From: an uncultured Alphaproteobacteria bacterium
GTDB lineage: Bacteria; Pseudomonadota; Alphaproteobacteria; Rhodobacterales; Rhodobacteraceae
NCBI GenBank assembly: GCA_902570265.1
Contig: CACFXF010000003.1
Span: 1-64,000, forward strand
DNA length: 64,000 bases
Direction of reading: 5' to 3'
Shown here: positions 5,889 to 34,169 of the stretch, piece by piece
Layout of the letters: each line of letters opens with the position of its first letter
Position numbering within the stretch: position 1 is the first letter of the stretch
Program-made: the position numbers and the translations under genes
The notes under the pieces: generated by a model
Seen by the model: the letters and a program-made list of their open reading frames with translations, nothing else
Told to the model about the DNA's origin: nothing
The model's database searches: none

Positions 5889-6698
5889 CTATTTTTTATC
5901 TCTCAGATATAACCATTCAAAATCTGGATGATTTTTAAATCTCCATTTTCTAATAGGACCAGCCATAACATTTAGATAATAAAGTTCGTAGCCATAAGGT
6001 ACTCCACATGGGTGATGTCCCTTAGGAACTAAAACTACATCACCATCGTTAAAACATATTGCTTGATCTACAGTTCTATCTTCAGAAAAAACTCTTTGAA
6101 ACCCAAATCCATTATTAGGATTAATTCTATGGTAATATGTTTCCTCTAAATATGTAATATTTGGAAAATCGTTTTCATCATGCCTATGTGGTGGATAAGA
6201 AGACCAGTTACCTTGGGGAGTAAATACTTCTGTAACTAGTAAGCTATTAGCTATTGGATTATCTTCCATTGCAATATTGAAAATCTGTCTTTTATTTGAT
6301 CCTTTACCTCTTTCAATAAGTTTTATTTCGTCTGAATTTATTATTGAAGGAAGAAACCCTTCTTTTCCTGGAGCACTACATACGGCTAACACTAAATTGG
6401 TACTTGCACTAATAGTCCACTCTGTTTGTAAGGGGATATAAACACCTGATGGAGGTTTTTTTTCAAAAACTGAATTTCGAGTACCCAATTTCCCAAGTTT
6501 TTTTCCAGAAACCTCAATGTCTCCATAGCCTTCAACAAAAACTAAAATAGATTCCTCAAGGTTTGTTTTGTCTTTAATATTATCACCTTTTTTTAAATGA
6601 TATAATTTAAAGCCGACATAATCCCAATGAGCAGTTTCTGGGGATATATCAAACTTTATTTTACTATCATTATTGGGTTTTATTAATAAATTATTCAT
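5889..6698 (-). CDS. iolB: 5-deoxy-glucuronate isomerase
   Basis: Third-step enzyme of myo-inositol breakdown, converting 5-deoxy-D-glucuronate to 5-dehydro-2-deoxy-D-gluconate. It is a bicupin metal enzyme of 269 residues, the usual size. The C-terminal cupin carries the metal-binding pattern PPHRHDENDFPN near residue 170, and downstream are LEETYYHRINP, GFGFQRV and LVPKGHHPCGVPYGYELYYLN, the latter part typical of IolB near 225-245. It lies 18 bases downstream of iolC on the same strand and is probably translated from the same message. Its own ribosome binding site is weak. Confidence 0.95.
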   Translation of the reverse strand: MNNLLIKPNNDSKIKFDISPETAHWDYVGFKLYHLKKGDNIKDKTNLEESILVFVEGYGDIEVSGKKLGKLGTRNSVFEKKPPSGVYIPLQTEWTISASTNLVLAVCSAPGKEGFLPSIINSDEIKLIERGKGSNKRQIFNIAMEDNPIANSLLVTEVFTPQGNWSSYPPHRHDENDFPNITYLEETYYHRINPNNGFGFQRVFSEDRTVDQAICFNDGDVVLVPKGHHPCGVPYGYELYYLNVMAGPIRKWRFKNHPDFEWLYLRDKK

Positions 6699-6716
6699 AA
6701 AATCAACCGCTTTTAA

Positions 6717-8621
6717 TTAATTATTTTTGTTCCATATTGCACAAAGTTTATGAAAATTATCTGACATTACTTTTGTAGCCTCTGAATCAGATATTTTTCC
6801 TGAAAACCATTTTTCTGCAACCTCTCCAAAAATACTCCTTCCAACTGCAAATCCCTTAACCATTTTGGATGATTGCGCAAATTTAAAAGATCTTGATAGT
6901 TGCCGCATTGGCTTATCTAAACCTAATAATAAAATACCCCTACAAAATTGATCCCACTCTACAATTAGCTTGTCAAGCTTCAACCAATTTTCTTTTTCTT
7001 TCAACGGTTCCAACTTCCACCAATCTGGCCTTATGCCAATACGATATAGGCGATCTATAACCTTTAAAATATCTTCATCATTTTTTTCATACTCTCTAGA
7101 AGTTATTATTTCTAGCAAAAACTCTAAATTGTTTTGTCTGCAAGCCTTAAAAATAGAAATTAAGTTCTTCTCTTGTTGTAATTTAATATCTTTTGAATCT
7201 TTAGGGTTATAAAAACAAAGTAATTTTACGATATGGTTTTTTGGCCATTCAATTAAACCATAACAATTTTCTCCAACATCATTCCCAAATTCTACTGGAA
7301 ATGATTTTGGTAATTCTGCAGGTCTTGCAATCCAAAGGTTATAATCAGAAGATTTATGAAGAATTTCTCTACCGTATAAATCATCACATATAATTCCAAA
7401 TTCGCCTTTTTTATTTGCAACCTTCAAACTTGCTTTGAAACATAAATTTTTAAATAAAGAAATTCTCTCAAAAGGGATATTATTTTTTTTTGCTAATTCT
7501 TCAAATTGTACCCTATGATCAAAAGCTAAAATTAAATTCTTTTTTATATTTCCACCTCTAGTAGTAGACCAATGAATATTTTCTAAATCCTGGTCTTTAC
7601 GTAGTATATGATTTTTTATTCCTCTTTTGAGAAAAAATGATAATTCTTTCCAACTTGGATATGATGGGGTGCAACCATGCCTGCTAACTGCAATCGCACC
7701 ACAAGCGTTTGCATAATCTAAACAAGTTTCCCAATTATTATTTCTTAACCATCCTCTAAGCAGACCTGCCATAAAGCCATCACCAGCGCCAAGAACGTTA
7801 AATACATCAATTTTAAAATTCTTACCTGTTATACCTTTCTCCAAATTTGATTTGATTTTATTTTCAAAAAGACTTGCTCCATAGGGTCCTCTTTTGCAAA
7901 CTAAGACTGCTTTAGTTAATGATCGAACATTTTTTAAAGCCTTTATAGTATTGTTAATACCTCCTGCAATATGGAATTCTTCTTCAGTTCCAACAATTAA
8001 ATCAAAAAGCTTTAAGGTTTTCTGTAATTTTTTTGTAACATGACGGGATTCTATAAATCTATTTTCTCCATCATTATGATCTGAAAGCCCCCATAAGTTA
8101 GGTCTAAAATCAATATCTAAAACTGTTTTTTTCTTAAGTTTTTTTGCTATAGAAAGGGCTTTGAGTGTTGCTCCTTCTACATTCGCATTTGAAAGGTGTG
8201 TCCCAGTTACACAAATACATTTTGCTCTTGAAATAAAATTTTCATTTATATCATTGGTTGATAACGCCATATCAGCACAATTTTCTCTGTAAAAAATTAG
8301 TGGAAAATTATTTTGGTTTTTTATACCTAAAATGACAAGAGCAGTTAACCTTTTTTTATCTACTCTAACACCTTCAGTATTCACTTTCTCCTTTTTTAAT
8401 TCTTCTAAAATAAACCTCCCCATATGTTCGTTGCCAACTCTGGTTATAACAGCTGATTTTAAACCTAATCTAGCTGAACAAGCAGCAATATTTGTAGGAG
8501 AGCCACCTATATATTTTTGAAAACTTCTCATATCCTCTAAACGACCACCAATTTGAGAACCATATAGATCAACTGAACTTCTACCTATTGTTATTAGATC
8601 AAGATTTCCAACTTTTTTCAT
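6717..8621 (-). CDS. iolC: 5-dehydro-2-deoxygluconokinase fused to DUF2090 (IolJ-like) domain
   Basis: Two-domain inositol catabolism protein, 634 residues from the chosen start. The N-terminal half is a PfkB-family sugar kinase: LITIGRSSVDLYGSQIGG at the start, YIGGSPTNIAA near 40, and the anion-hole/catalytic motif VLGAGDGFMAGLLRG near 285. It phosphorylates 5-dehydro-2-deoxygluconate. The C-terminal half, from about residue 340 (LILAFDHRVQFEEL), is a DUF2090 TIM-barrel domain, known in proteobacterial fusions and thought to act as the aldolase that follows the kinase. A separate iolJ is not needed if that is so. I used ATG 8621 rather than an in-frame TTG two codons upstream. Confidence 0.94.
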   Translation of the reverse strand: MKKVGNLDLITIGRSSVDLYGSQIGGRLEDMRSFQKYIGGSPTNIAACSARLGLKSAVITRVGNEHMGRFILEELKKEKVNTEGVRVDKKRLTALVILGIKNQNNFPLIFYRENCADMALSTNDINENFISRAKCICVTGTHLSNANVEGATLKALSIAKKLKKKTVLDIDFRPNLWGLSDHNDGENRFIESRHVTKKLQKTLKLFDLIVGTEEEFHIAGGINNTIKALKNVRSLTKAVLVCKRGPYGASLFENKIKSNLEKGITGKNFKIDVFNVLGAGDGFMAGLLRGWLRNNNWETCLDYANACGAIAVSRHGCTPSYPSWKELSFFLKRGIKNHILRKDQDLENIHWSTTRGGNIKKNLILAFDHRVQFEELAKKNNIPFERISLFKNLCFKASLKVANKKGEFGIICDDLYGREILHKSSDYNLWIARPAELPKSFPVEFGNDVGENCYGLIEWPKNHIVKLLCFYNPKDSKDIKLQQEKNLISIFKACRQNNLEFLLEIITSREYEKNDEDILKVIDRLYRIGIRPDWWKLEPLKEKENWLKLDKLIVEWDQFCRGILLLGLDKPMRQLSRSFKFAQSSKMVKGFAVGRSIFGEVAEKWFSGKISDSEATKVMSDNFHKLCAIWNKNN

Positions 8622-16690: not shown

Positions 16691-17473
16691 TCAAGCCAGT
16701 TCTTTTGCAAGATCTCCAACTTCTGCTCCACCAGCCATTAACCTTCTAATATCATCGCCAGCTAAATCTTTTGATGTACCGCTCCCTATTACTTCCCCTA
16801 AAGAGATAAAAGTATATCTGTCAGCAATAAGTCGTGCGTGTATTTCATTATGGGTAATTAGTATAATTGCAATATTACCAAGCTGCTGAACTTTTTTTAT
16901 GGTTTTCAACACTTCCATCTGCTGTTTTTGACCTAATGCAGAAGTTGGCTCATCTAAAATTAGGACTTTTGCACCGAAGTATATTGCTCTAGCTATAGCT
17001 AATGTTTGCCTTTGTCCTCCAGACATAGTCCCAACAGGTTGTTCAGGATCTTCAATTTTAATCCCAATTTTTGCCATTTCCTCTATAGCTATGCCGTGCA
17101 TTTTATTCATTTTTAGAATTCCAAATGGACCTTTTCCAAATTTTAACTCTCGGCCCAAGAAAAAATTTCTAGTAACTGAAGTTAAAGAATTTAGAGCTAA
17201 ATCTTGATAGACTGTTCCTATACCAACTTCAGATGCATCACGTGGTGAATTAAACTTAGTTTCTTTACCCTCAACTATGATTTTACCAGATGTAGGTTGA
17301 TGAACACCTGATAAAGCTTTTATTAAGGTAGATTTACCTGCACCATTATCACCAAGAAGTGCATGAACCTCTCCAGGATAGACTTTTAAAGATACGCCAT
17401 TTAGTGCAATAAAAGAACCAAACTTTTTTACTATATCTTGGGTCTCTATTAATGGTATCAAATTAGTAACCAT
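16691..17473 (-). CDS. Sugar (probably inositol) ABC importer, ATP-binding protein
   Basis: Single-domain ATPase of a ribose/fructose/inositol-type importer, 260 residues. Visible are Walker A LLGDNGAGKSTLIKALSG near 38, the Q-loop region VYQDLAL, the signature MSGGQRQTLAIARAI near 148 and Walker B VLILDEPTSALG near 168. Unlike RbsA or MglA, which have two ATPase halves, this is a single half, as in FrcA-type systems. It overlaps the permease stop by one base and is the last gene of a binding protein-permease-ATPase unit inside the inositol island, so myo-inositol is the likely substrate (inference). A GGGGAA site precedes the ATG. Confidence 0.9.
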   Translation of the reverse strand: MVTNLIPLIETQDIVKKFGSFIALNGVSLKVYPGEVHALLGDNGAGKSTLIKALSGVHQPTSGKIIVEGKETKFNSPRDASEVGIGTVYQDLALNSLTSVTRNFFLGRELKFGKGPFGILKMNKMHGIAIEEMAKIGIKIEDPEQPVGTMSGGQRQTLAIARAIYFGAKVLILDEPTSALGQKQQMEVLKTIKKVQQLGNIAIILITHNEIHARLIADRYTFISLGEVIGSGTSKDLAGDDIRRLMAGGAEVGDLAKELA

Positions 17474-19059
17474 TATATATTCCCCATAATTCTTTTTCTT
17501 ATATTTTCATTTAAAAGAGCAGAAGCTATAATAACAAAACCAAGGAAAACCCTATAAAAGGAACCATCTACACCTGGAATGTAGAAAAAAGCTTCTTTCG
17601 CTAGTCCAAAAATAAATGCACCTACTATAATTCCAAGTACAGTCCCAAAACCACCGGTCATAACAATTCCACCTATTACAGCAGCTGCTATGGCTTCTAA
17701 TTCTTTCAAGTTTCCTTTTGCCGCGTCTGATGTATTAACTTCAAAAACCTGACATGTCGCAAATAAAGTAGCGCAAAATGCTGAAAATATAAAAAGCGAA
17801 ATTTTAACTTTATTAGTAGGAACACCATTTGCCTGAGCAGCACTTAAATTACCTCCTGTAGAATAAATCCAATTCCCAACCTGTGTTTTACTTAAAACAA
17901 TATAACAAACCAAAGATAAAATAACCCAGATCATTACACAAGAATAAAGACCTGGTGCAAATTGATTCCCAAAGTTATTTACATTCCAATCTATTGGAAA
18001 ATAAAGCCAATCAAAAATTGGTTCTAAAATATTACCACCAAAGAAGTCTGCTATAGGACGAGATGTACCTATTGAGTCAATATATGCTCTTGCTATATCA
18101 ATTTCAGTAACTGATTTTGGTATGACTGGATCAATTTTAAAATTCTCAATTTTTTCTTGTATTGTTTTAATCATGTATTCATTGTCAGAAGCCACTGCAT
18201 TTTCTAGTGCTTTTTCTAAAGGTTTAACACCCTTTGCAATGAGTAAATTAGTTTTTGCTTCTGCAACTCTTTGAAATGTATATTCTAATCTTTCTGTGAT
18301 TTTATAAATAACATCTGAAGGCAGGTTTTTTACAATTGAAAGAAGATCCCCATCGGGTAAATATTTTGCCGCTTCCCTTTCCATCTCACCATATCCTGGT
18401 AAGTTAATTATATTTTTTATATCTGGAATTTCTGTAACTGTTGTAGCCCCTTTTGCTTGATCAGGACGATGATTAAATGATCTCAAAGAAACTTCTGTTA
18501 GTCCTCTTAGAAAGAAGAGACCTCCTAATGTTACAATAAAAGAAGGTAATCCTGAACGTACAATTATAAAACCTTGGATCCATCCAAAAGTTAAAGTAAA
18601 ACATAGTGTAATAAAAATAGCTAAAATAGGAGATACATCTGAAATATGTAGTAATGTATAAAATTCGATATGGGCACCGTCGTCAAAATAAACATAAGGT
18701 ATTATGATTGAAAAACCCCATCTTAATATCATGGCCATACAAGCCCCAGCAAATCCAATCATAGATCCAATAGATAAATCAAATTCACCAGCAATTATAA
18801 GAAGACCAGCTCCTAAAGCAATTATTCCTAGTTGAGAAATAACCCTTAAATTATTTCTTATACCTAGAGCATTAAAACCCTCTCCAGCAAAAGGATTCCA
18901 AGTTGTTTCAGATGCAGGTATAGAAAAATAACCAAGCATACCAAAAAGCAATATCATCACACCTATTGGGCCAATTTCCGGTCTCGAAAGAATAGAAATT
19001 AGACTACTTTTTGATTTATGCCTATCAGACTCTTTTCTTAATGAATTGGATGAATTCAT
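17473..19059 (-). CDS. Sugar (probably inositol) ABC importer, permease with large insertion
   Basis: Inner-membrane permease of the RbsC/FrcC type (BPD_transp_2 fold), 528 residues against about 330-400 for typical relatives. Conserved parts are GLLIIAGEFDLSIGSMIG near 85-101, FIIVRSGLPSFIVTLGG near 164-180, TGGNLSAAQANGVPTNKV near 401 and GGIVMTGGFGTVLGIIVGA late. Between about residues 195 and 335 lies a charged, helix-rich, non-membrane insertion (for example EREAAKYLPDGDLL, KITERLEYTFQRVAEAK) not needed by the fold; some inositol permeases have a shorter loop there. The insertion is encoded at about 18055-18477. Co-directional with the binding protein upstream, from which a hairpin separates it. 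Confidence 0.88.
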   Translation of the reverse strand: MNSSNSLRKESDRHKSKSSLISILSRPEIGPIGVMILLFGMLGYFSIPASETTWNPFAGEGFNALGIRNNLRVISQLGIIALGAGLLIIAGEFDLSIGSMIGFAGACMAMILRWGFSIIIPYVYFDDGAHIEFYTLLHISDVSPILAIFITLCFTLTFGWIQGFIIVRSGLPSFIVTLGGLFFLRGLTEVSLRSFNHRPDQAKGATTVTEIPDIKNIINLPGYGEMEREAAKYLPDGDLLSIVKNLPSDVIYKITERLEYTFQRVAEAKTNLLIAKGVKPLEKALENAVASDNEYMIKTIQEKIENFKIDPVIPKSVTEIDIARAYIDSIGTSRPIADFFGGNILEPIFDWLYFPIDWNVNNFGNQFAPGLYSCVMIWVILSLVCYIVLSKTQVGNWIYSTGGNLSAAQANGVPTNKVKISLFIFSAFCATLFATCQVFEVNTSDAAKGNLKELEAIAAAVIGGIVMTGGFGTVLGIIVGAFIFGLAKEAFFYIPGVDGSFYRVFLGFVIIASALLNENIRKRIMGNI

Positions 19060-19119: not shown

Positions 19120-20025
19120 TTATCGATCTACACCTGCCAAAGAGGCAACTGAAGAAGCATTACTCTTATCAACAAAGCCTGGTCCAGATGGAATATTTGC
19201 ACCTGGTAATAGACCAGCACCGGTGTTGTGAAGATGTAAAACAATTATAGGCATGTAACCTTGCAATCGCTGCTGTTGGTCAATTGTATATTGAACCTTT
19301 CCCGCATTGATTAAATCCATAACTGGTGGACTAAGATCAAAACAAGAATGGTGAACACTCATTCCCAACTCATCAATAGCTTGTTGCACTCCTACACATA
19401 CGTGAGGGCCAACTGATAAAACAGCATCTACGTCTGGATTTGCTTGAAGCCCAGCTGCAGCTCTAGTAGGTATAGTAGCAGGGTCATTTGAACTATCAAA
19501 ATTAGTAGTTGGAATAGCTTCAGCATATCCACCACATCTATCTGTTAAAGCAGTATTGTAAGCTTCTTGAATAAAACAAATACCTTTAGTTGCACCTTCA
19601 GCTTTTGCTCTTTCACCAGCTTTTTGACCTGCCAAAAATTCTGGCTGTCCTACATGCATAAGAGCTCCTAAAGAAGCAGAAGACTCTAAGCCAGAATTCA
19701 TAGTAATAACTGGTATACCAGCAGAAACAGCATCTTTAATTGCTTGACCTAAGGCGTCTGGATCTGGCAATGATACAACCAATCCGTCTGGCTGTGTTGC
19801 AGCAGCAGCAGCTATGGATTTTGCCATATCAGCCATATCACCAGAAGGAGTAAAGATATACTCAAAATCTGCTCCAATAGCTCGAGCAGCATCTTCTCCA
19901 CCCTTCTGAACTACTGGCCAAAATGGATCCTTACCTTCTCCATGTGTTACCATAACATAACGCTCTGCAGATACAGAACTAGCTAATGCGAATATTGCTG
20001 CAAAAGCGATAAATAGTTTTTTCAT
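19120..20025 (-). CDS. Periplasmic sugar/inositol-binding protein
   Basis: Binding protein of a ribose-type ABC importer, 301 residues, of the Peripla_BP_4 fold. An N-terminal signal peptide is clear: two lysines, then a hydrophobic run LFIAFAAIFALASSVSA with cleavage after SVSA. The mature part starts ERYVMVTHGEGKDPFWPVVQKG, typical of the fold, followed by QPDGLVVSLPDPDALGQAI and AGIPVITMNSG. The start has a strong GGGGAG site. It precedes the permease and ATPase genes and sits in the inositol island, so an inositol-binding (IbpA-like) role is likely but not proven. GC content looks a little higher than neighbours, as usual for highly expressed binding proteins. Confidence 0.9.
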   Translation of the reverse strand: MKKLFIAFAAIFALASSVSAERYVMVTHGEGKDPFWPVVQKGGEDAARAIGADFEYIFTPSGDMADMAKSIAAAAATQPDGLVVSLPDPDALGQAIKDAVSAGIPVITMNSGLESSASLGALMHVGQPEFLAGQKAGERAKAEGATKGICFIQEAYNTALTDRCGGYAEAIPTTNFDSSNDPATIPTRAAAGLQANPDVDAVLSVGPHVCVGVQQAIDELGMSVHHSCFDLSPPVMDLINAGKVQYTIDQQQRLQGYMPIIVLHLHNTGAGLLPGANIPSGPGFVDKSNASSVASLAGVDR

Positions 20026-20359: not shown

Positions 20360-21103
20360 ATGATTAAAAATTTCATAAAAGTTTTATTTGCATTACTAAT
20401 TGCAACACCAGTATTTTCAGCTGATTTAGGCGGTCGAATTCTAGATATTGGTTCAGATACTACCTATCCACCACATGAGTCCATTGATCCAAATACTGGT
20501 GAGGTTGTTGGATTTGACGTAGATGTCGTAGCTGAAATTTGTAAAAAAATTAATTGCAAACCAAATTGGGTAACAACAGCTTGGGATGGTATTTTTGCAG
20601 CACTGGCAAACAAGCAATTTGATATGGTTGTATCTGGAGTTACGATTACTGATGAAAGGGACAAAATTGTAGACTTTTCTGATCCTTATATAATCGTACA
20701 ACAAGGGGTGTTAATGCGCGTTGAAAACAAAGGATCAACTATTGAAAATTATAAATCAGGTAGTTTAAGCCTAGCATCTCAAAAAGGAACAACTAATGCA
20801 GAGCTTGGAGAAGAATTGGTAGGAAGAGCTAATTTAAAACTGTTTGATGATTTTTCTGCAGCAGTTCTTGCCTTACAAAATGGTGATGTTGATGGCGTTA
20901 TAATAGATAGCACCTCCGCTGCAGCCTATGAACAGGAATTTGCAGGAGAATTAACAGTTGGGATCACAGGTCTATCATCAGATCCATTAGGTTTAGTTTT
21001 TCAAGAAGGTGATAGTCTACAAGATGCCTTTAATGAAGGATTAGCTGCAATTAAGAACGATGGAACCCTTGATAATTTGATAATTAAATGGTGGCCTAAA
21101 TAA
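20360..21103 (+). CDS. Amino-acid ABC importer, periplasmic binding protein
   Basis: Family 3 (SBP_bac_3) solute-binding protein, 247 residues. The signal peptide is MIKNFIKVLFALLIATPVFS. The mature part has TYPPHESIDPNTGEVVGFDV, DVVAEICKKINCKPNWV, WDGIFAALANKQFDMVVSG and VTITDERDKIVDFSDPYI, all hallmarks of polar amino-acid binding proteins. GGGGAG precedes the ATG. It begins a + strand run that continues into an aminotransferase and decarboxylase of the arginine type, so a basic amino acid or a quaternary amine amino acid is a reasonable ligand; that is inference. A GC-rich hairpin follows it. Confidence 0.93.
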   Translation: MIKNFIKVLFALLIATPVFSADLGGRILDIGSDTTYPPHESIDPNTGEVVGFDVDVVAEICKKINCKPNWVTTAWDGIFAALANKQFDMVVSGVTITDERDKIVDFSDPYIIVQQGVLMRVENKGSTIENYKSGSLSLASQKGTTNAELGEELVGRANLKLFDDFSAAVLALQNGDVDGVIIDSTSAAAYEQEFAGELTVGITGLSSDPLGLVFQEGDSLQDAFNEGLAAIKNDGTLDNLIIKWWPK

Positions 21104-21164: not shown

Positions 21165-22853
21165 ATGATTTATTTTCTTAATTGGTTGAGAAGCGTCAGA
21201 GTTAGTAATCTGATATTTATTTTCTTTTTACCTTTCATAATTTATTTTATTGCGATTTCTAGAAATTACGGAAAGGCATTAAAATCAATTTTAGGTATAG
21301 AAGAGAATGCATTATCTCTATTATCAGCATTTTTAATTCTAGCCATAATTGGAATCTTTGGATTTATCACGTCATTAAAGCTATATAGAAGTATAAGATT
21401 AGATATAGAAATCAAAGATAGAATATCGAGCTATCGAGCAGCATGTATATTTTTATCTGTAATTATATTACTAAACATCATAGTACTATATTTACCAGTA
21501 TTAGATCGATATATTGTATCAGTAGCAGTTAATTCTTTTGATCCTAGAACTACAGACTGGATAATTATGGTTGATCAAAGTTTTGTTTTGGAACAATCAT
21601 TTGAGAACTATATAATTAAAACTGTCAGATCATTTATTTTAATTTATTGTTTGTTTTTGTTTTTATTTTTATTGTACTTGATAACTTTTAGGCAAAACCT
21701 TACTTCAACAATTAGTAAATTTTGTATACTTTTAAATGGTTTAATAGGTTTCCTAATAGCTTTTTATATAATTATGATTGCACATGCTGGGTTTTCATTA
21801 GGCTTGGCAGTTACATTAAGAGCGGCATTTTTTGCTTATACATTGGCAAGTATGTTAGGGTTAGTTTGGGCTCTACTAAGTAAGTTAAAACCAAATAATT
21901 TTGCTTCACTAATATATTTGATTCTAGGCTTTATATTTATTTTTATAGGAATATTCAGTTTTTTAAAACCATATAAAAATGTTGCTCTTTATGGCAGTTT
22001 AGACGGGAAAATTGGAATAGTTTCTGGAACACCACAAAACATATCAGATCAAGTAAGATATGGAGATTTTTTAGCTCAAAAACCCAGTACGCCATTTAAG
22101 ATAAGGTCAATAAAAACTAACGAGCAAGCCATTGAGTTGCTTGATAGTGGTAAAATATCTGCTGCACTTATCACACCCAATTTAAGTAAAAATTATAATC
22201 TCATTTGGGAAACAAATTTTTTACCCTCAAAAGATAGAAACATAGGAATATTTGCAACAATTTTAGGAGTTTTTTTAGTATTGATTGTTTTAATTGGTAG
22301 ATTAACCCAAATGCATCCACTAGCAATTTTTTCAGATTTTTTTGTTGATACCATTCGTGGGGTACCTATGTTGGTTATAATTTTATATATTGGCTTACCT
22401 TTGGCAGGCGCAATAAAAAGTGCCTCTGCTGGGTATATAGATATGCAGATGATGACAAGAGGGATAATTGCAATAGGAATTGGATATTCTGCTTATATGG
22501 CAGAAATATTTAGAGCCGGTATAGAAGCCGTACCAAAAGGTCAAATTGAGGCAGCCAGAACACTAGGCTTAAAAGAATTTTATATTGCAAGATTAATCAT
22601 ATTACCTCAGGCAATAGCAATTGTTTTACCAGCCTTGGGTAATGAATTTATAGCAATGCTTAAAGATACTTCTCTTGTGTCTATATTATCAGTAAGAGAT
22701 ATAACGCAAAGAATGCGTGAATTTCAAGCTCAAAGTTTTCTTCCCTTTGAACCCTTCAATACAGCTGCTTTATTATATATTCTACTTACTTTATTAGCTG
22801 CAAGTAGCATTAAATCGTTGGAAAAAATAGTTAATAAAAATAAAGAAAATTAA
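21165..22853 (+). CDS. Amino-acid ABC importer permease, oversized and split by a soluble loop
   Basis: HisM/GlnP-type permease of 562 residues, against about 220-400 for relatives. The transporter core is at about 390-555, with the ATPase-contact EAA motif IEAARTLGLKEFYIARLI near 461-478 and GVPMLVIILYIGLPL near 399-413. The first core helix (AVTLRAAFFAYTLASMLG, about 215-232) seems separated from the rest by about 120 residues holding two more membrane segments and a soluble stretch at 275-345 (LDGKIGIVSGTP, QAIELLDSGKISAALI) that resembles part of a family 3 binding protein. Several helices precede it. There is no ribosome binding site before the ATG and no ATPase gene nearby, so the ATPase must be encoded elsewhere. 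Confidence 0.85.
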   Translation: MIYFLNWLRSVRVSNLIFIFFLPFIIYFIAISRNYGKALKSILGIEENALSLLSAFLILAIIGIFGFITSLKLYRSIRLDIEIKDRISSYRAACIFLSVIILLNIIVLYLPVLDRYIVSVAVNSFDPRTTDWIIMVDQSFVLEQSFENYIIKTVRSFILIYCLFLFLFLLYLITFRQNLTSTISKFCILLNGLIGFLIAFYIIMIAHAGFSLGLAVTLRAAFFAYTLASMLGLVWALLSKLKPNNFASLIYLILGFIFIFIGIFSFLKPYKNVALYGSLDGKIGIVSGTPQNISDQVRYGDFLAQKPSTPFKIRSIKTNEQAIELLDSGKISAALITPNLSKNYNLIWETNFLPSKDRNIGIFATILGVFLVLIVLIGRLTQMHPLAIFSDFFVDTIRGVPMLVIILYIGLPLAGAIKSASAGYIDMQMMTRGIIAIGIGYSAYMAEIFRAGIEAVPKGQIEAARTLGLKEFYIARLIILPQAIAIVLPALGNEFIAMLKDTSLVSILSVRDITQRMREFQAQSFLPFEPFNTAALLYILLTLLAASSIKSLEKIVNKNKEN

Positions 22854-22915: not shown

Positions 22916-24088
22916 ATGAAATTTTCAAAATTAACAGATCGTATTTCTGACCTTGGATCGGATAAATGGTTATTACATTTAGAGGCTAGGAAACTAAAAA
23001 AAAATAATCCCAATATAATTGAATTAACGATAGGCGAACCTGATCAACCCCCTCCTGAAGAACTAATAGAGAAATGCTGTGATTCCATGCGATCTGGTAG
23101 AACTAAATATTCTAATGGGAGAGGCGAGGAAATTCTTCTTGATGCTCTTGTACAAAAATACCAAAAAAGAACTCCTTTAAAAGTTACAAGAAATAATTTT
23201 TTATGTTTACCCGGAACTCAAACTGCTTTGTTTGCAACAGTAATGTGCTTGACTGAAGAAGAAGATGAAATTTTGGTGGGCGATCCATACTACGCTACTT
23301 ATGAAGGTATAATTAAATCTTCAGGAGCAACAATTATCCCAATCCCTTTACACGAAAAATATGACTTTTCGTTGCAGGAAAAAGATTTTCGTATGAAAAT
23401 AACTAGTAAAAGTAAAGCTTTACTTCTTAATTATCCTCATAATCCAACAGGTGGTATTTTAAGAAAAAAAGATTTATCCGAATTGGCTGATATTGTTAAA
23501 AAAAATAATTTATGGATTATATCTGATGAGGTTTATGAAGAGCTTATTTTTAAAGAAGATTTTGTTTCTCCTCTGGAAATACCTACTCTAGCTGAAAGAA
23601 CAATAGTTGTATCTTCAATTTCAAAAAGCCATGCATCACCAGGTTTTCGATCAGGATGGGTTTTTGCCTCTGAAGAAGTTATTAACAAAATGTTACCATT
23701 AGCAGAAACTATGCTTTTTGGAAATCAACCTTTTATAGCTGATATGACGGCTTATGCAATTTCAAACAAAAGTCAAACCGCCTTAAAAATGAGAACAGAT
23801 TATCAGCGAAGGGCTAAGTTAATTTGTAAAAAACTAGCTAATACAAAAAATATTCGTCCTATTATGCCAAAATCAGGTATGTTTATTCTAATAAAATTAG
23901 AGCTTAAAAATTTTAATGATGAGAAATTTGCCTGGAACCTTCTTCATTCAGAAGGTGTTGCTGTGATGCCAGGCTCTTCATTTGGTTTAAATGGAAAAGA
24001 TTTTATTAGGTTAAGTCTGACAGTACCTGATAAAGAGTTAGAAAGCGCATGTGAAAGAATAGATGAATTTGTAAAAAAAATAGATTAG
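22916..24088 (+). CDS. aruH: PLP aminotransferase, arginine:pyruvate transaminase (AruH)-like
   Basis: Class I/II aminotransferase, fold type I, 390 residues. The PLP lysine is in SSISKSHASPGFRSGW near 240; other family marks are NYPHNPTGG near 170, DEVYEELIF near 203 and SGMFILIKLEL near 322. The phrase WIISDEVYEELIF, the SKSHA motif and the stretch MLFGNQPFIAD resemble arginine:pyruvate transaminase as I remember it. The directly following gene is AruI-like, nine bases away, which strongly supports an arginine transaminase-type pathway. An alternative substrate among basic or trimethylated amino acids is possible given the carnitine genes downstream. No clear ribosome binding site. Confidence 0.75.
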   Translation: MKFSKLTDRISDLGSDKWLLHLEARKLKKNNPNIIELTIGEPDQPPPEELIEKCCDSMRSGRTKYSNGRGEEILLDALVQKYQKRTPLKVTRNNFLCLPGTQTALFATVMCLTEEEDEILVGDPYYATYEGIIKSSGATIIPIPLHEKYDFSLQEKDFRMKITSKSKALLLNYPHNPTGGILRKKDLSELADIVKKNNLWIISDEVYEELIFKEDFVSPLEIPTLAERTIVVSSISKSHASPGFRSGWVFASEEVINKMLPLAETMLFGNQPFIADMTAYAISNKSQTALKMRTDYQRRAKLICKKLANTKNIRPIMPKSGMFILIKLELKNFNDEKFAWNLLHSEGVAVMPGSSFGLNGKDFIRLSLTVPDKELESACERIDEFVKKID

Positions 24089-24097
24089 TTTTATTTA

Positions 24098-25729
24098 ATG
24101 ATTGAAAAAAATAAAGAAAATAAGAATTCAACTATTGGGAGTTATTTATTACCTATATTAGAAGAATACGGTGTAGATATTATTTTTGGAATACCTGGAG
24201 TTCATACTGTTGAAATTTATCGTGGTCTTCATAAAACAAGTATAAAACATATTACCCCACGACACGAGCAAGGCGCCGGATTTATGGCTGATGGATATTC
24301 TAGAGTAAGTGGCAAGCCTGCTGTATGCTTAGTAATAACTGGTCCAGGACTTACAAATATATTAACTGCCATGGCCCAAGCTCGAGCAGATTCTATTCCA
24401 ATGCTTATTATTTCATCAGTCAATCCTTATGATAATAAAAGAAAACACTCAGGATTACTTCACGAATTACCTCATCAACAAAAATTGTTAAAAAAAATAG
24501 CAATTAGTTCTCTTACAGTAAAAAAAACAAAAGATCTTCTTCCTGCAATTAAAAAATCATTTTTAAAAATGCTTGAGGAAAGGCCAGGACCTGTTCACCT
24601 AGAAATTCCAACAAATGTATTAAATCACGAATACCAAAAATTGAAAAAAAATAATCTATGTATTAAGAAGAAAAAAATCAAATCATCTGAAAAAAAAATA
24701 AATGAAGTTTCAAACTATTTAACCCATGCAAAATATCCAGTATTGCTCCTTGGTGGTGGCGCGAGAGGATGTGATGAATATATCCTCAAGATTGTAGAAA
24801 AATTAAGTCCTTATGTAGTAACTACAATAAATGCGAGAGGTATTTTAGGGGATCATGCAATGTGCATTCCTGCAAGTCCAACCTTAAAAACAGTTAGAAA
24901 AGAACTAAAAAAAGCAGATATAGTACTGGCGGTTGGTACAGAGTTTGGAGAAACAGATTATGATATGTATAAGGATGGCAATTTTCCTAAATTAAAAAAA
25001 TTAATTCGGGTCGATATAAATAAAACTCAACTTACAAAAAATATTCAACCTCATTTGTCAATAAGGAGTGATGCATTTTATTTCTTTAAAAAATTGTCTG
25101 AGATTTTGTTAGTAAAAAAGCATTATAAGAAGTCATCTTTACAAACTCCTCAAACGGCAAAAATAATTAGAAAACTTTGTTTGAAAGAGATTGAACCCAA
25201 ATTTAAAGTTCCACTTAATTTAATTTCAACAATATCAAGTAATTTCCCTGATGCGATTCTCGTAGGCGATAGTACTCAGCCAACGTATGCCGGAAATCTT
25301 TATACTAAAACATCAAAACAAGGCAAATGGTTCAACTCAGCGACGGGTTACGGTACTCTTGGCTATGCTCCTCCTGCATCTATTGGTGCTAAATTAGCCA
25401 AACCAAATAAACCAGTAATATGTATAGTAGGAGACGGAGGATTGCAATTTTCTTTAAGTGAACTGATGACTGCCTCGGAAGAAAAGATTGCCGTTATTTT
25501 TTTAATTTGGAATAACTTTGGTTACAAAGAAATTAAGGATTTTATGGTTTCAGAAAATGTGAATCCTATTGGAGTAGATATCACACCTCCTAATCTCAAA
25601 ATTCAAGCTGCTGCTTTTAACCTACAATATTATGGTTTGATTAATAGAAATAATCTAGTTAAAACTTTAAAAAAAACAATAAGGGAAAAAAAACCTTCAA
25701 TATTAGAAATTCGTGAAAATGAATACTAG
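24098..25729 (+). CDS. aruI: TPP-dependent 2-ketoacid decarboxylase, AruI-like
   Basis: Thiamine-diphosphate enzyme of 543 residues resembling 5-guanidino-2-oxopentanoate decarboxylase. The N-terminal domain has IIFGIPGVHTVEIYRGL near 28, the catalytic Glu in TPRHEQGAGFMADGYSR near 55-70, and LHELPHQQ near 125, all characteristic of the AruI branch rather than of acetolactate synthase. The TPP/Mg site is IVGDGGLQFSLSELMTA near 445. It would convert the ketoacid made by the preceding aminotransferase into an aldehyde two steps from GABA. No aldehyde dehydrogenase lies in the operon. The 24-base gap to the next gene suggests co-transcription. Confidence 0.8.
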   Translation: MIEKNKENKNSTIGSYLLPILEEYGVDIIFGIPGVHTVEIYRGLHKTSIKHITPRHEQGAGFMADGYSRVSGKPAVCLVITGPGLTNILTAMAQARADSIPMLIISSVNPYDNKRKHSGLLHELPHQQKLLKKIAISSLTVKKTKDLLPAIKKSFLKMLEERPGPVHLEIPTNVLNHEYQKLKKNNLCIKKKKIKSSEKKINEVSNYLTHAKYPVLLLGGGARGCDEYILKIVEKLSPYVVTTINARGILGDHAMCIPASPTLKTVRKELKKADIVLAVGTEFGETDYDMYKDGNFPKLKKLIRVDINKTQLTKNIQPHLSIRSDAFYFFKKLSEILLVKKHYKKSSLQTPQTAKIIRKLCLKEIEPKFKVPLNLISTISSNFPDAILVGDSTQPTYAGNLYTKTSKQGKWFNSATGYGTLGYAPPASIGAKLAKPNKPVICIVGDGGLQFSLSELMTASEEKIAVIFLIWNNFGYKEIKDFMVSENVNPIGVDITPPNLKIQAAAFNLQYYGLINRNNLVKTLKKTIREKKPSILEIRENEY

Positions 25730-25753: not shown

Positions 25754-26662
25754 ATGTCTTTAAATATTAACTCTGAAGTTTTTATAACTTGTGCTTTAAC
25801 TGGATCTGGAAGTACACAAGAAAAAAGTAAATTTGTTCCGAGATCACCAAAAGAAATTGCTGATGATGCTATATTGGCTGCTAAATCAGGTGCTTCTATA
25901 GTACATTGTCATGTTAGAGATCCAAACACAGGAGCCCCCTCTAGGAAATTAGAATATTATAAAGAAGTTACTGATAGAATTAGAAGTTCAAATACAGATG
26001 TCGTTTTAAATCTTACTGCAGGTATGGGAGGAGATATGGTTTTTGGACCAACTTCAAATCCTTTAAAATTAGGAAAAGGTACAGATATGATAAGTGCAGA
26101 GGAAAGGGTAGAACATATTGCTACTTGTTTGCCTGAAATATGCACATTAGATTGTGGGACCATGAATTTTGCTGAAGCTGACTATGTGATGACAAATACT
26201 CCCGGAATGCTTGAAAAAATGGGAAAGCTAATAACTGACTTTGGAGTTACTCCAGAAATAGAGGCATTTGATACAGGACACCTTTGGTATGCAAAAAAAT
26301 TAGTATCAAATGGAATATTAAAAAATCCTGCTCTTGTTCAACTTTGTATGGGAGTTCCTTGGGGAGCACCAAATGATTTAAATACATTTCTAGCCATGGT
26401 TAATAATGTTCCTAAAGACTGGACTTGGTCTGCATTTTCACTTGGGAGAAATCAGATGCCTTATGTAGCAGCTGCAGTTTTAGCGGGTGGGAATGTAAGA
26501 GTTGGTTTAGAAGATAATTTGATGATTTCGAAAGGAAAACTTGCAACCAATAAAACATTGGTAGGAAAAGCAGTAGAAATAATTGAAAATTTGGGCGCTA
26601 AAATTCTAACACCTGATGAAGTAAGAAATAAACTTAATCTTACAAAAAGAGCCCCAAATTGA
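25754..26662 (+). CDS. Beta-keto acid cleavage enzyme (BKACE), probable 3-dehydrocarnitine cleavage
   Basis: BKACE family (formerly DUF849) zinc enzyme, 302 residues. These enzymes transfer a beta-keto acid's acyl part to CoA from acetyl-CoA, releasing acetoacetate. Visible are TCALTGSG at the N terminus, SIVHCHVRDPNTGAPS with zinc-ligand histidines near 47-62, LNLTAGMG near 82, and EIEAFDTGHLW with a catalytic Glu near 172. The following gene, four bases overlapping, resembles L-carnitine dehydrogenase, whose product 3-dehydrocarnitine is a known BKACE substrate (CdhC in pseudomonads), so betainyl-CoA plus acetoacetate are the expected products. AAGGAT precedes the ATG. Confidence 0.85.
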   Translation: MSLNINSEVFITCALTGSGSTQEKSKFVPRSPKEIADDAILAAKSGASIVHCHVRDPNTGAPSRKLEYYKEVTDRIRSSNTDVVLNLTAGMGGDMVFGPTSNPLKLGKGTDMISAEERVEHIATCLPEICTLDCGTMNFAEADYVMTNTPGMLEKMGKLITDFGVTPEIEAFDTGHLWYAKKLVSNGILKNPALVQLCMGVPWGAPNDLNTFLAMVNNVPKDWTWSAFSLGRNQMPYVAAAVLAGGNVRVGLEDNLMISKGKLATNKTLVGKAVEIIENLGAKILTPDEVRNKLNLTKRAPN

Positions 26663-27642
26663 GTAATAAAATTAACAATGTTGCGTGTATTGGATGTGGA
26701 ACTATTGGTGCAGGATGGGTTACAAGGTTTTTAGTTAATCAGATAAAAGTAAAAATATATGACCCTACACCTTATGCCGAAACTAGATTAGAGATTGTAA
26801 TAAAAAATACTAAAAGGGCTTATAAAAATTTTTTTCCTAATAAAACAATTAACTTTAAAAATTTCGAATATTTTAATGAAATTTCTCCTGCAATAGAAAA
26901 TGCTGACTTAATCATAGAAAGTGTTCCTGAAAGACTAGATATAAAACAAAAAATCTTTGAAAATATTGAAGAGTTTTGTTCAAAGCAAACAATTATAGCT
27001 TCATCAACTTCTGGCATAAAACCAACAGATTTACAAAATGAAATGAAAAATCCTGAAAGATTGATGGTTACACATCCTTTTAATCCCGTTTATCTTATAC
27101 CTTTAGTAGAAGTAGTTGGAGGAAATAAAACAGAGTATAAATTTATAAAAAAAATTATTGATTTTTTTAATTCAATTAATATGAAACCTATCCATTTAAA
27201 AAAAGAAATTGAAGCTTTTGTAGCTGACAGGCTTCTAGAGGCCATTTGGAGAGAGTCTCTTTGGCTCATTAAGGATGGAATTTGTACAACTAGTGAACTT
27301 GATGATATTGTTCGCTATGGATTTGGTCTTAGGTATGCACAAATGGGAGTTTTCCAAACTTACAGGACAGCAGCAGGTGAAGGAGGAATGCGAAAATTTC
27401 TAGAGCATTTTGGTCCTTGTTTAACATGGCCATGGACTAAACTAATGGATGTACCTGAGTTTAATGATGAGCTTATAGATCTAATTACTAATCAGTCTGA
27501 TCAACAAGCTAATGGATTAAGTGTTACTAAACTTGAACAAATTCGTGATAAAAATTTAGTTGAAATTCAAAAAGCATTAGAAAAAAATAATTATGGTGCA
27601 GGAAGATTAATAAAAAAAGCTAGGGTCAAAAAAAGTCCTTAG
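26659..27642 (+). CDS. L-carnitine dehydrogenase-like 3-hydroxyacyl dehydrogenase family protein
   Basis: NAD-dependent dehydrogenase of 327 residues in the 3-hydroxyacyl-CoA dehydrogenase family. The N-terminal Rossmann loop is ACIGCGTIGAGWVTRFL. Substrate and catalytic marks are VTHPFNPVYLIPLVEVVGG near 138 (catalytic His) and the C-terminal GLRYAQMGVFQTYRTAAGE, GPCLTWPWTKLMDVPE, which match the L-carnitine 3-dehydrogenase subgroup (CdhA/LcdH) as I know it. Start is TTG at 26659, overlapping the BKACE stop (TTGA). The pair forms the aerobic carnitine to glycine betaine route. No thioesterase (CdhB) is fused or adjacent. Confidence 0.85.
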   Translation: MSNKINNVACIGCGTIGAGWVTRFLVNQIKVKIYDPTPYAETRLEIVIKNTKRAYKNFFPNKTINFKNFEYFNEISPAIENADLIIESVPERLDIKQKIFENIEEFCSKQTIIASSTSGIKPTDLQNEMKNPERLMVTHPFNPVYLIPLVEVVGGNKTEYKFIKKIIDFFNSINMKPIHLKKEIEAFVADRLLEAIWRESLWLIKDGICTTSELDDIVRYGFGLRYAQMGVFQTYRTAAGEGGMRKFLEHFGPCLTWPWTKLMDVPEFNDELIDLITNQSDQQANGLSVTKLEQIRDKNLVEIQKALEKNNYGAGRLIKKARVKKSP

Positions 27643-33218: not shown

Positions 33219-34169
33219 CTAACTAGAATTTGAAAAAATAAATCCCAGAAAGTTTAACAAAATTTGTGCTGCCAAAATTGCTGTGCTGTCAGTTGGGTCA
33301 TAATCAGGAGCTACCTCAACTATATCTATACCAATTATAGAGTTTTGAACTGTAATACTTTGAAGAAGTTCTAAAACTTCATAATATAAAAAACCACCAT
33401 GACTCGGAGTGCCTGTGCCTGGAGCAATTGATGGACAAAAAGCGTCTATATCTATTGTGACATAGAGTCTTTTTCCTTTTGGAATTCTCTTAGCAATATT
33501 TTTCATTCCAATTTTTCTTGCTTGTCTTACTGAAATAATATCACTACCCATTTCCCTTGCTTTTTCATAACCTTCTTTTGCAGTCGAAGAAACATTTCTT
33601 ATTCCAACCTGAGTTAAACCTGAAACATAGTCTTTTTCTGCAGCTCTTCTCATTGGATTCCCATGACCATATCTGACACCATGTCTTTCATCTACAAAAT
33701 CAAGATGTGCATCGATTTGCAAAATATGAAAGGAACTTTCATCTTTAAATGCTTCAATACAAGGTATATTTATAGAATGGTCACCACCAATAACTACTGG
33801 TAAACTTTTTGCATTTAGAGCAGCTTTAACAGCTTTACAAATATTATAATGGCTTTTTTTTGTATCAGTATGAACAATGTCAGCATCGCCTAGATCTACT
33901 ATTTTGACAGATTTATCCAAATAAGTTTTTTCATCTTCATGATCATAAGCACCTGCGTGTCCAAATGAAAATAATGTTGATGCTTCTCTTACGGCACGAG
34001 GTCCAAATCTTGCACCTGGCCTAAACTGAGTACCAAAGTCAAAAGGTGCACCTATAATAGAAACATCCGCTCTAAAATTATCCCAATTCTTTATGTACTC
34101 TCTTTTTGCAAATGTAGAAATCCCAACAAAAGGTAAATCTAATCTTCCACTATCATAATTATTAGAAAT
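33219..34169 (-). CDS. Agmatinase/guanidinobutyrase-family ureohydrolase with no canonical start codon
   Basis: Manganese ureohydrolase (arginase family). Metal ligands are in VVIGGDHSINIP, QIDAHLDF and VTIDIDAFCPSIAPGTG. The homologous frame does not begin at the first usable start, TTG 33920: upstream of it the same frame stays open to 34199 and encodes family residues (ISTFAKREYIKNWDNF, IIGAPFDFGTQFRPGARFGP, FSFGHAGAYDHEDEKTY). In that 5' part there is no ATG, GTG or TTG in frame. The best candidate is ATT at 34169-34167, seven bases after AGAGGT; otherwise the gene is slightly broken or has a sequence error. It would hydrolyse a guanidino compound to urea and an amine, fitting the AruH/AruI pathway. 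Confidence 0.7.
   Translation of the reverse strand: MSNNYDSGRLDLPFVGISTFAKREYIKNWDNFRADVSIIGAPFDFGTQFRPGARFGPRAVREASTLFSFGHAGAYDHEDEKTYLDKSVKIVDLGDADIVHTDTKKSHYNICKAVKAALNAKSLPVVIGGDHSINIPCIEAFKDESSFHILQIDAHLDFVDERHGVRYGHGNPMRRAAEKDYVSGLTQVGIRNVSSTAKEGYEKAREMGSDIISVRQARKIGMKNIAKRIPKGKRLYVTIDIDAFCPSIAPGTGTPSHGGFLYYEVLELLQSITVQNSIIGIDIVEVAPDYDPTDSTAILAAQILLNFLGFIFSNSS

Follow-up and report, generated by a model that had tools for sequence, protein, structure and literature searches.

Gene content of the locus

The window, as we call the whole 64,000-nucleotide stretch analyzed here (contig CACFXF010000003.1 of an uncultured Rhodobacteraceae bacterium), holds the gene of a substrate-binding protein (SBP) that ends 61 nt upstream of a permease gene on the same strand (Table 1). 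The permease is matched above the curated cut-offs by both PF00528 (BPD_transp_1, Pfam; cut-off 26.4 bits) and TIGR01726 (HEQRo_perm_3TM, NCBIfam; 46.1 bits, cut-off 42.2), and by these matches its product is a polar amino acid type I ABC importer permease. Nucleotides 21987–22199, which correspond to permease residues 275–345, had been singled out in an earlier note as a soluble stretch that splits the permease core, resembles a lobe of a family 3 binding protein and might dock or help to select the ligand; this stretch belongs to a larger inserted segment.

Table 1 Features of the permease locus (residue numbers refer to the permease)
Feature	Coordinates	Strand	Basis
Gene of the cognate SBP (247 aa, family SBP_bac_3)	20360..21103	+	PF00497, 128 bits
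Permease gene, 562-aa ORF	21165..22853	+	PF00528, 69.7 bits over residues 388–554; TIGR01726 match
First N-terminal helix and next helix before the core, residues 13–43	21201..21293	+	AlphaFold2 helices 13–31 and 33–43
Insertion A, helix-rich extra segment, residues about 44–205	21294..21779	+	AlphaFold2
Probable canonical core helix TM1, residues 212–239	21798..21881	+	VIA-align matches; profile match of short members
Outgoing helix of the inserted hairpin, residues 245–266	21897..21962	+	AlphaFold2, block pLDDT 88–94
Predicted soluble lobe resembling binding-protein lobe 2, residues 270–353	21972..22223	+	AlphaFold2, Foldseek, VIA-align, hhalign against SBP lobe 2
Returning hairpin helix, residues 355–381	22227..22307	+	AlphaFold2; partly TM1-like
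Core TM2–TM5, residues 385–561	22317..22847	+	PF00528 and NCBIfam matches
ATPase-contacting loop of EAA type (presumed), residues 446–468	22500..22568	+	Conservation
Downstream aminotransferase and thiamine-diphosphate decarboxylase genes	22916..25729	+	PF00155; NF005712

A scan kept 79 loci from 517 relatives of the permease, of which 63 (L009–L071, part copies included) match over the lobe. Fifty-seven of these and the window protein form the family alignment (A1, 58 sequences), from which four loci at contig ends (L018, L038, L039 and L065), one with a broken-off core match (L066) and one with an ambiguous residue (L053) were left out. Two further alignments (A3 and A4) hold 30 of the 58 sequences, and another (A2) holds 25 of the 57 SBPs. 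The lobe is present in all 58 aligned members. Across the family, core residues 385–560 have a mean pairwise identity of 0.72, and at 17 of the 23 positions of residues 446–468 one residue is held in at least 90% of the 58 sequences; we take this stretch to be the EAA motif that contacts the ATPase. Insertion A (mean pairwise identity 0.29), which includes a short strand pair at residues 133–142 in the AlphaFold2 model, is found in the long (proteobacterial) members and is missing from 13 short, Trueperaceae-type members (353–414 residues), which align to the query permease from residue 207, 213 or later. Neither this N-terminal insertion nor the missing ATPase gene discussed below had been mentioned in the earlier note.

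Other genes around the pair hint at the substrate. The decarboxylase encoded downstream matches NF005712 (5-guanidino-2-oxopentanoate decarboxylase) with 661 bits against a cut-off of 500, and by their sequences the two genes at 22916–25729 are probable catabolic genes of the arginine-transaminase type. Together with an arginase-family gene at 33219–33920 on the opposite strand, the decarboxylase match hints at a basic amino acid, arginine or a similar compound, as the substrate in the source genome. Across the lobe family an aminotransferase gene occurs in three loci and a decarboxylase gene in five, so these genes do not define the family, and neighboring genes differ between its lineages. 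A glycoside substrate was considered from a GH1-type gene near the pair in five loci and from sugar genes in Ruegeria, and was dropped, as the neighborhood varies. In three alphaproteobacterial loci a GH1 gene, unexpected beside an amino acid importer, directly follows the SBP–permease pair (L040, at 6634–8052, the only one with a Pfam search, L043 and L052).

Three further observations concern the genes on either side. On the minus strand, a sugar ABC permease of 528 aa (17473–19059) has a core that is apparently split by a long charged stretch at about residues 195–350; its matches to BPD_transp_2 comprise two stretches in all, the best of which covers residues 359–513 only. Beside it on the same strand, 19123–20025 encodes a sugar-type binding protein that scores 237 bits with a rhizopine SBP model, below the cut-off of 420. 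At 25754–27642, a gene for a beta-keto acid cleavage enzyme lies beside a carnitine-3-dehydrogenase-like gene (472 bits, cut-off 592), an arrangement that suggests breakdown of a carnitine-like or 3-hydroxy compound.

Predicted likeness of the soluble domain to lobe 2 of a family 3 binding protein

The AlphaFold2 model of the whole permease, run on the 58-sequence family alignment, has a mean pLDDT of 81.4 (77–82 over the lobe) and places helices at residues 212–239, 245–266 and 355–381, with a β-β-α-β-α-β-β unit at 271–352 between the last two. Modeled alone (residues 270–356, 30 sequences), the lobe reaches a mean pLDDT of 91.8 and a pTM of 0.79; in the numbering of this model its elements follow in the order strand 2–8, strand 14–17, helix 22–30, strand 44–47, helix 50–59, strand 64–67 and strand 77–83.

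The best VIA-align match to the lobe is SocA (5l9o; Z 8.3, r.m.s.d. 3.0 Å, 78 of 87 residues aligned, chain residues 133–229). Among the best 50 matches there are 32 binding proteins, including several near-duplicates (mutant forms of a single protein), 5 flytrap sensor domains, 4 LysR-type effector domains, 6 LytR-CpsA-Psr proteins, 1 unnamed chain and 2 enzymes, MqnD and ATP phosphoribosyltransferase, which we take to have a fold like that of binding proteins. SBDs of GlnPQ are also among the matches, and in the LAO protein (1lst) residues 89–195 align to the permease lobe, a range that we take to be lobe 2 with both hinge strands. When the whole permease was the structure query, binding proteins were listed alongside permeases. 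Best Z values of 7–8 are common by the tool's own warning, and the top value of 8.3 is hardly higher; what carries the reading of the fold is therefore not Z but the consistency of the lobe-2 range. In these models, residues 270–353 form a soluble domain with a flytrap-lobe fold, most like lobe 2 of the family 3 binding proteins with its hinge strands. Only one such 84-residue lobe is present in the models, with no second lobe joined by a hinge. The earlier reading of a family 3-like stretch inside the core, for which an unordered loop or an unrelated fold had been named as refuting, thus survives: the region is predicted to be ordered, with a fold like that of a family 3 lobe.

Shared topology might still arise by chance, and the lobe could then be a small α/β domain of other origin. 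The rank 1 Foldseek match is in fact a LytR-CpsA-Psr protein (2xxq, E = 2.0 × 10−3), just ahead of the ancestral amino-acid-binding protein AncCDT-1 (E = 2.7 × 10−3), and the LytR-CpsA-Psr chains score alike in VIA-align (Z 7.3–7.5). The best Z barely exceeds what the tool typically returns, and phmmer and hmmsearch of the lobe against the PDB gave chance-level matches only (best E 0.12). Likewise, the SBP_bac_3 profile (PF00497) matches none of 30 lobes at E ≤ 10, the window lobe has no match in Pfam or NCBIfam, and a Pfam search with the 30 lobes returned only four chance families, each in one member. Against such an unrelated origin, binding proteins, flytrap sensors, LysR-type effector domains and the two like-fold enzymes make up 43 of the best 50 VIA-align matches, and they align over the lobe-2 stretch. 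In Foldseek as in VIA-align, most matches over this stretch are periplasmic-binding folds, with 6 LytR-CpsA-Psr chains among the best 50 of each.

Profile–profile alignment points the same way. With hhalign, a narrow profile of whole SBPs gave a weak score of 18.9, in register, and 3 of 20 column shuffles scored higher, whereas a broader target of lobe 2 gave 22.0 against a maximum of 16.8 in 100 column shuffles. On repetition, SBP lobe 2 scored 22.8 (maximum of 150 shuffles, 17.0) and lobe 1 scored 11.1; whole SBPs scored 22.7, with 1 of 150 shuffles higher (24.2). Other modes in the first comparison with lobe 2 gave 7.1 (global) and 17.0 (no context), and the reported probabilities were 17% and 30% on lobe 2 and 2% and 10% on whole SBPs. 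We therefore regard chance resemblance as unlikely and descent of the lobe from a binding protein as likely, the support from sequence being weak.

The insertion follows the probable first core helix

The position of the lobe within the core depends on which of the three long helices is the canonical TM1. VIA-align reports first and last aligned residues only; among the best 50 matches to the permease model, seven start at residue 211 of the model (five MalF chains, OpuA 7ahd_B and the alginate transporter 4tqv_A), and three further MalF-type chains begin earlier. The five MalF chains aligned from about MalF residue 278; which chains are MalF, and where the MalF core begins, we have assumed. 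The short members were compared with a profile of insert-free permeases, built without control L075. In 12 of the 13, the N-terminal 200 residues match from profile positions 31–37 to 87–93 (domain E 6 × 10−10 to 2 × 10−5), and L064, which has a later-starting gene model, matches weakly (8.4 bits at positions 63–95). As a caveat, the 212-bit match of the window protein to this profile comes from residue 360 on and takes in the second half of TM1, whereas its residues 211–238 alone score 3.3 bits.

From the VIA-align starts and the profile matches of the short members, residues 212–239 are probably the canonical TM1 and residues 240–384 the insertion, which would then comprise about 145 residues. 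The earlier note had correctly seen that the first core helix is cut off from the EAA-containing remainder, and had put the intervening segment at about 120 residues, which is too short. The order along the chain would accordingly be TM1, in which G213, Y225, L231, G232 and A236 are invariant in the family, the hairpin helix 245–266, the lobe, the returning helix 355–381 and then TM2 (from residue 385). A partial duplication of TM1 is possible, because the returning helix likewise looks like the second half of TM1 and is the part that joins the 212-bit match in the window protein. At its inner ends the hairpin is bounded by short loops with on average 2.2 (the loop before helix 245–266) and 1.9 K/R/H against 0.2 and 0.2 D/E, and this positive charge places the lobe on the outer side of the membrane.

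Periplasmic loops are known in AapQ/BztB-type permeases, with which the earlier note had compared the insertion, and an ordinary member of that type would belong to the same superfamily and carry long extra segments as well. The site is a different one, however: in AapQ-type permeases of the genomes examined, so identified by reading of the gene cluster, the TIGR01726 match stops at positions 64–72 (roughly the end of TM2), whereas in the lobe family it begins at positions 11–25 and in the window permease it runs unbroken from 15 to 99. Moreover, the A3 profile has a single match in the window's own genome, the window permease, although a four-gene Aap-type cluster is present there, and the lobe permease is encoded by a single permease gene and not by a pair. 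An AapQ/BztB-type permease with its known loop is thus very improbable, and the comparison fails as to the site.

Phylogeny and distribution of lobe-bearing permeases

In a tree of the core (TM2 on), all 58 lobe-bearing sequences fall on one side of a branch with support 100/98, and the 45 long ones fall on one side of an inner branch with support 99/97. Nearest to the family are two Chloroflexota permeases without the lobe (L076 and L087). The tree has midpoint rooting only, parts of it are made unsure by long branches (own-genome permeases, Chloroflexota sequences and L070), and one own-genome permease (ownC7), in which the cutting motif was not found, was left out; read with this in mind, the sequences suggest an order from plain permease to gain of the lobe and then of the N-terminal insertion. 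In the long group, some metagenome-assembled genomes (MAGs) labeled Bacteroidota or Myxococcota may be mis-binned, since sequences with identical cores carry other labels.

Searches with the A3 profile found matches in 3 of 21 near relatives, the own genome counted, and in 23 of the 111 genomes searched from the phylum that includes the one-contig MAG G022, one of them in two pieces. Among 385 genomes of the class the full match was in the own genome only, with two others matching over 29 and 48 columns, and among 301 genomes of the phylum of L087 there were five marginal part matches; in both of these searches many of the listed genomes had no more than 10 or 12 candidates scored, so that misses are possible. 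The laboratory strain Sinorhizobium meliloti 1021 has a homologue on pSymB. No paper on such a permease was found among the titles and abstract starts of the open-access literature searched.

An ATPase borrowed from another importer is probable

The SBP gene lies directly upstream of the permease gene in 58 of the 60 loci of the lobe family in which the upstream sequence exceeds 400 nt. An amino-acid-type ATPase gene (at least 170 bits) lies within 3 kb in none of the 57 loci that have 1 kb or more of downstream sequence, compared with 13 of 15 insert-free controls; 4 of the 57 have another ABC ATPase (79–137 bits). In L036, an ABC ATPase of 433 residues (183 bits) is encoded 3.7 kb away on the opposite strand. 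Weak matches to a second permease (E 1 × 10−3 to 4 × 10−5) occur at least 1.8 kb upstream in L056, L068 and L069.

The two controls without an adjacent amino-acid-type ATPase are the Chloroflexota permeases L076 and L087, the nearest insert-free relatives. Absence of the ATPase gene is therefore not linked to the lobe and may predate it; a role of the lobe in compensating for this absence was discarded for the same reason. In the window's own genome (G000, 81% complete) there are three clearly amino-acid-type ATPases, and in G022 there are two (at least 45% identity; the next one down is at 40%); all of them adjoin other permeases, which in G000 are amino acid permeases. A borrowed ATPase is therefore likely: the lobe permease is probably driven by the ATPase of another amino acid importer in the cell, although the partner could also be an ATPase of a more distant type, at no more than 40% identity.

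Loss of ligand residues and candidate functions of the lobe

In the cognate SBPs, T145 (of a GTT motif) and D183 are invariant (25 of 25). We take the matching Thr and Asp of the LAO protein to contact the ligand, and assign these roles to the second Thr of the lobe-2 GTT and to the Asp after the last core strand. At the position of the Thr, 290, the permease lobe has P in 58 of 58 sequences, and at that of the Asp, 337, it has P in 49, S in 3, T in 2 (the window protein has T), D in 2 and E in 2; the equivalence of 337 with D183 comes from three profile alignments, and that of 290 with T145 from one, with a gap there in another. Judged from these replacements, the lobe probably binds no amino acid itself and seems to be retained in a role different from that of the usual amino acid site. 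Selection of the ligand by the lobe, as proposed earlier, is accordingly disfavored.

A role in capture would be recovered if the two lobes of a permease dimer faced each other as a composite clamshell at the mouth of the channel; the permease itself would then capture or proof-read the amino acid. Such an arrangement is favored by the similar fold of the two lobes of a flytrap, by a lobe-2-like fold that runs from hinge to hinge and by residues held as strongly as P290 (58 of 58) and R314 (55 of 58). Replacement, mainly by Pro, of the very Thr and Asp that all 25 cognate SBPs share, and an SBP gene directly upstream in nearly every locus, nevertheless make it improbable. The more specific two-step version, in which the lobes of a homodimer close over the channel as a second flytrap to receive and check the amino acid delivered by the free SBP, is if anything more doubtful.

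Alternatively, hairpin and lobe might form a structural or regulatory brace that stabilizes the permease or holds an accessory envelope protein, without contact to the SBP. Such a role would suit the modest conservation of the lobe (mean pairwise identity 0.39, with 0.23 and 0.33 in the flanking helices, compared with the core) and the further helix-rich insertion in the proteobacterial branch. Some lobe positions are, however, as firmly fixed as those of the core (G277 and P290 in 58 of 58, W348 and L353 in 57 of 58), and the nearly constant pairing with an SBP gene also counts against a brace, to which we would give a minor share of the probability.

The simplest candidate function, and a plausible one, is that the lobe docks the binding protein. 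It is consistent with a lobe on the outer side of the membrane, with the upstream SBP gene and with the precedent of MalF P2. A docking lobe, in a permease that borrows its ATPase, is more probable than a lobe that selects the ligand, and to the explanation as a whole, an outer lobe inserted one time that docks the free SBP in a homodimeric permease with a borrowed ATPase, we give slightly better than even credence. On this docking model, a helix–lobe–helix module entered the cytoplasmic turn between TM1 and TM2, probably in a single event, so that each subunit would carry on its outer face half a binding protein of 84 residues, made up of lobe 2 and both hinge strands. The permease would be made together with its own binding protein and would probably form a homodimer, as no second amino-acid-type permease gene adjoins. 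Its two lobes would probably flank the landing site of the free binding protein and hold or orient it, much as the unrelated MalF P2 holds the maltose-binding protein. Lacking the usual ligand residues, they would probably bind no amino acid, and the ATPase of another amino acid importer would probably power the pump.

Comparison with known importers

The core of the model matches 4yms, which we take to be an ArtQN-type amino acid ABC importer, over 212 of the 215 residues of 4yms_D (Z 20.0, r.m.s.d. 2.8 Å, 34% identity), with the aligned range beginning at model residue 30. However, 4yms_D has 215 residues and the lobe permease 562, and since nearly all of the former aligns there is no room in it for hairpin and lobe. 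Family 3 binding proteins (SocA 5l9o, LAO 1lst and GlnPQ SBD1 6fxg) share the predicted lobe-2 fold including the hinge strands; by contrast, the permease has a single, membrane-anchored lobe in which the ligand residues are replaced and which lies below profile detection.

Binding-protein folds in the same chain as a permease are found in GlnP/GlnPQ and OpuA. There, whole two-lobed domains are fused at one end, whereas the lobe permease has a single lobe inside its core and keeps a free SBP. The P2 domain of MalF sits before the first core helix and has a fold other than that of a binding-protein lobe. It resembles the permease lobe in being an outward-facing soluble domain inserted in a type I permease, and differs in that the permease lobe is placed downstream of the first core helix and resembles one half of a binding protein. 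P2 is described in PMC3150292, and an interaction between P2 and MalE is named in titles of its reference list.

Multitask ATPases of the MsmX type serve several type I importers (PMC7658222). That work concerns sugar importers, and in the amino acid system of the lobe permease such sharing would be an extension.

Where the database records examined carry an annotation, these proteins are called simply 'amino acid ABC transporter permease', so the lobe domain goes unnoticed. How an importer recognizes its binding protein is known in detail for few systems, and a permease lineage with half a binding protein in its core, probably acquired once and kept in two phyla, would amount to a natural experiment on docking. 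Such a lineage also suggests how a flytrap lobe may come to be reused as a scaffold, and the SBP–permease pairs without an ATPase gene would provide a test case for the sharing of ATPases among amino acid importers.
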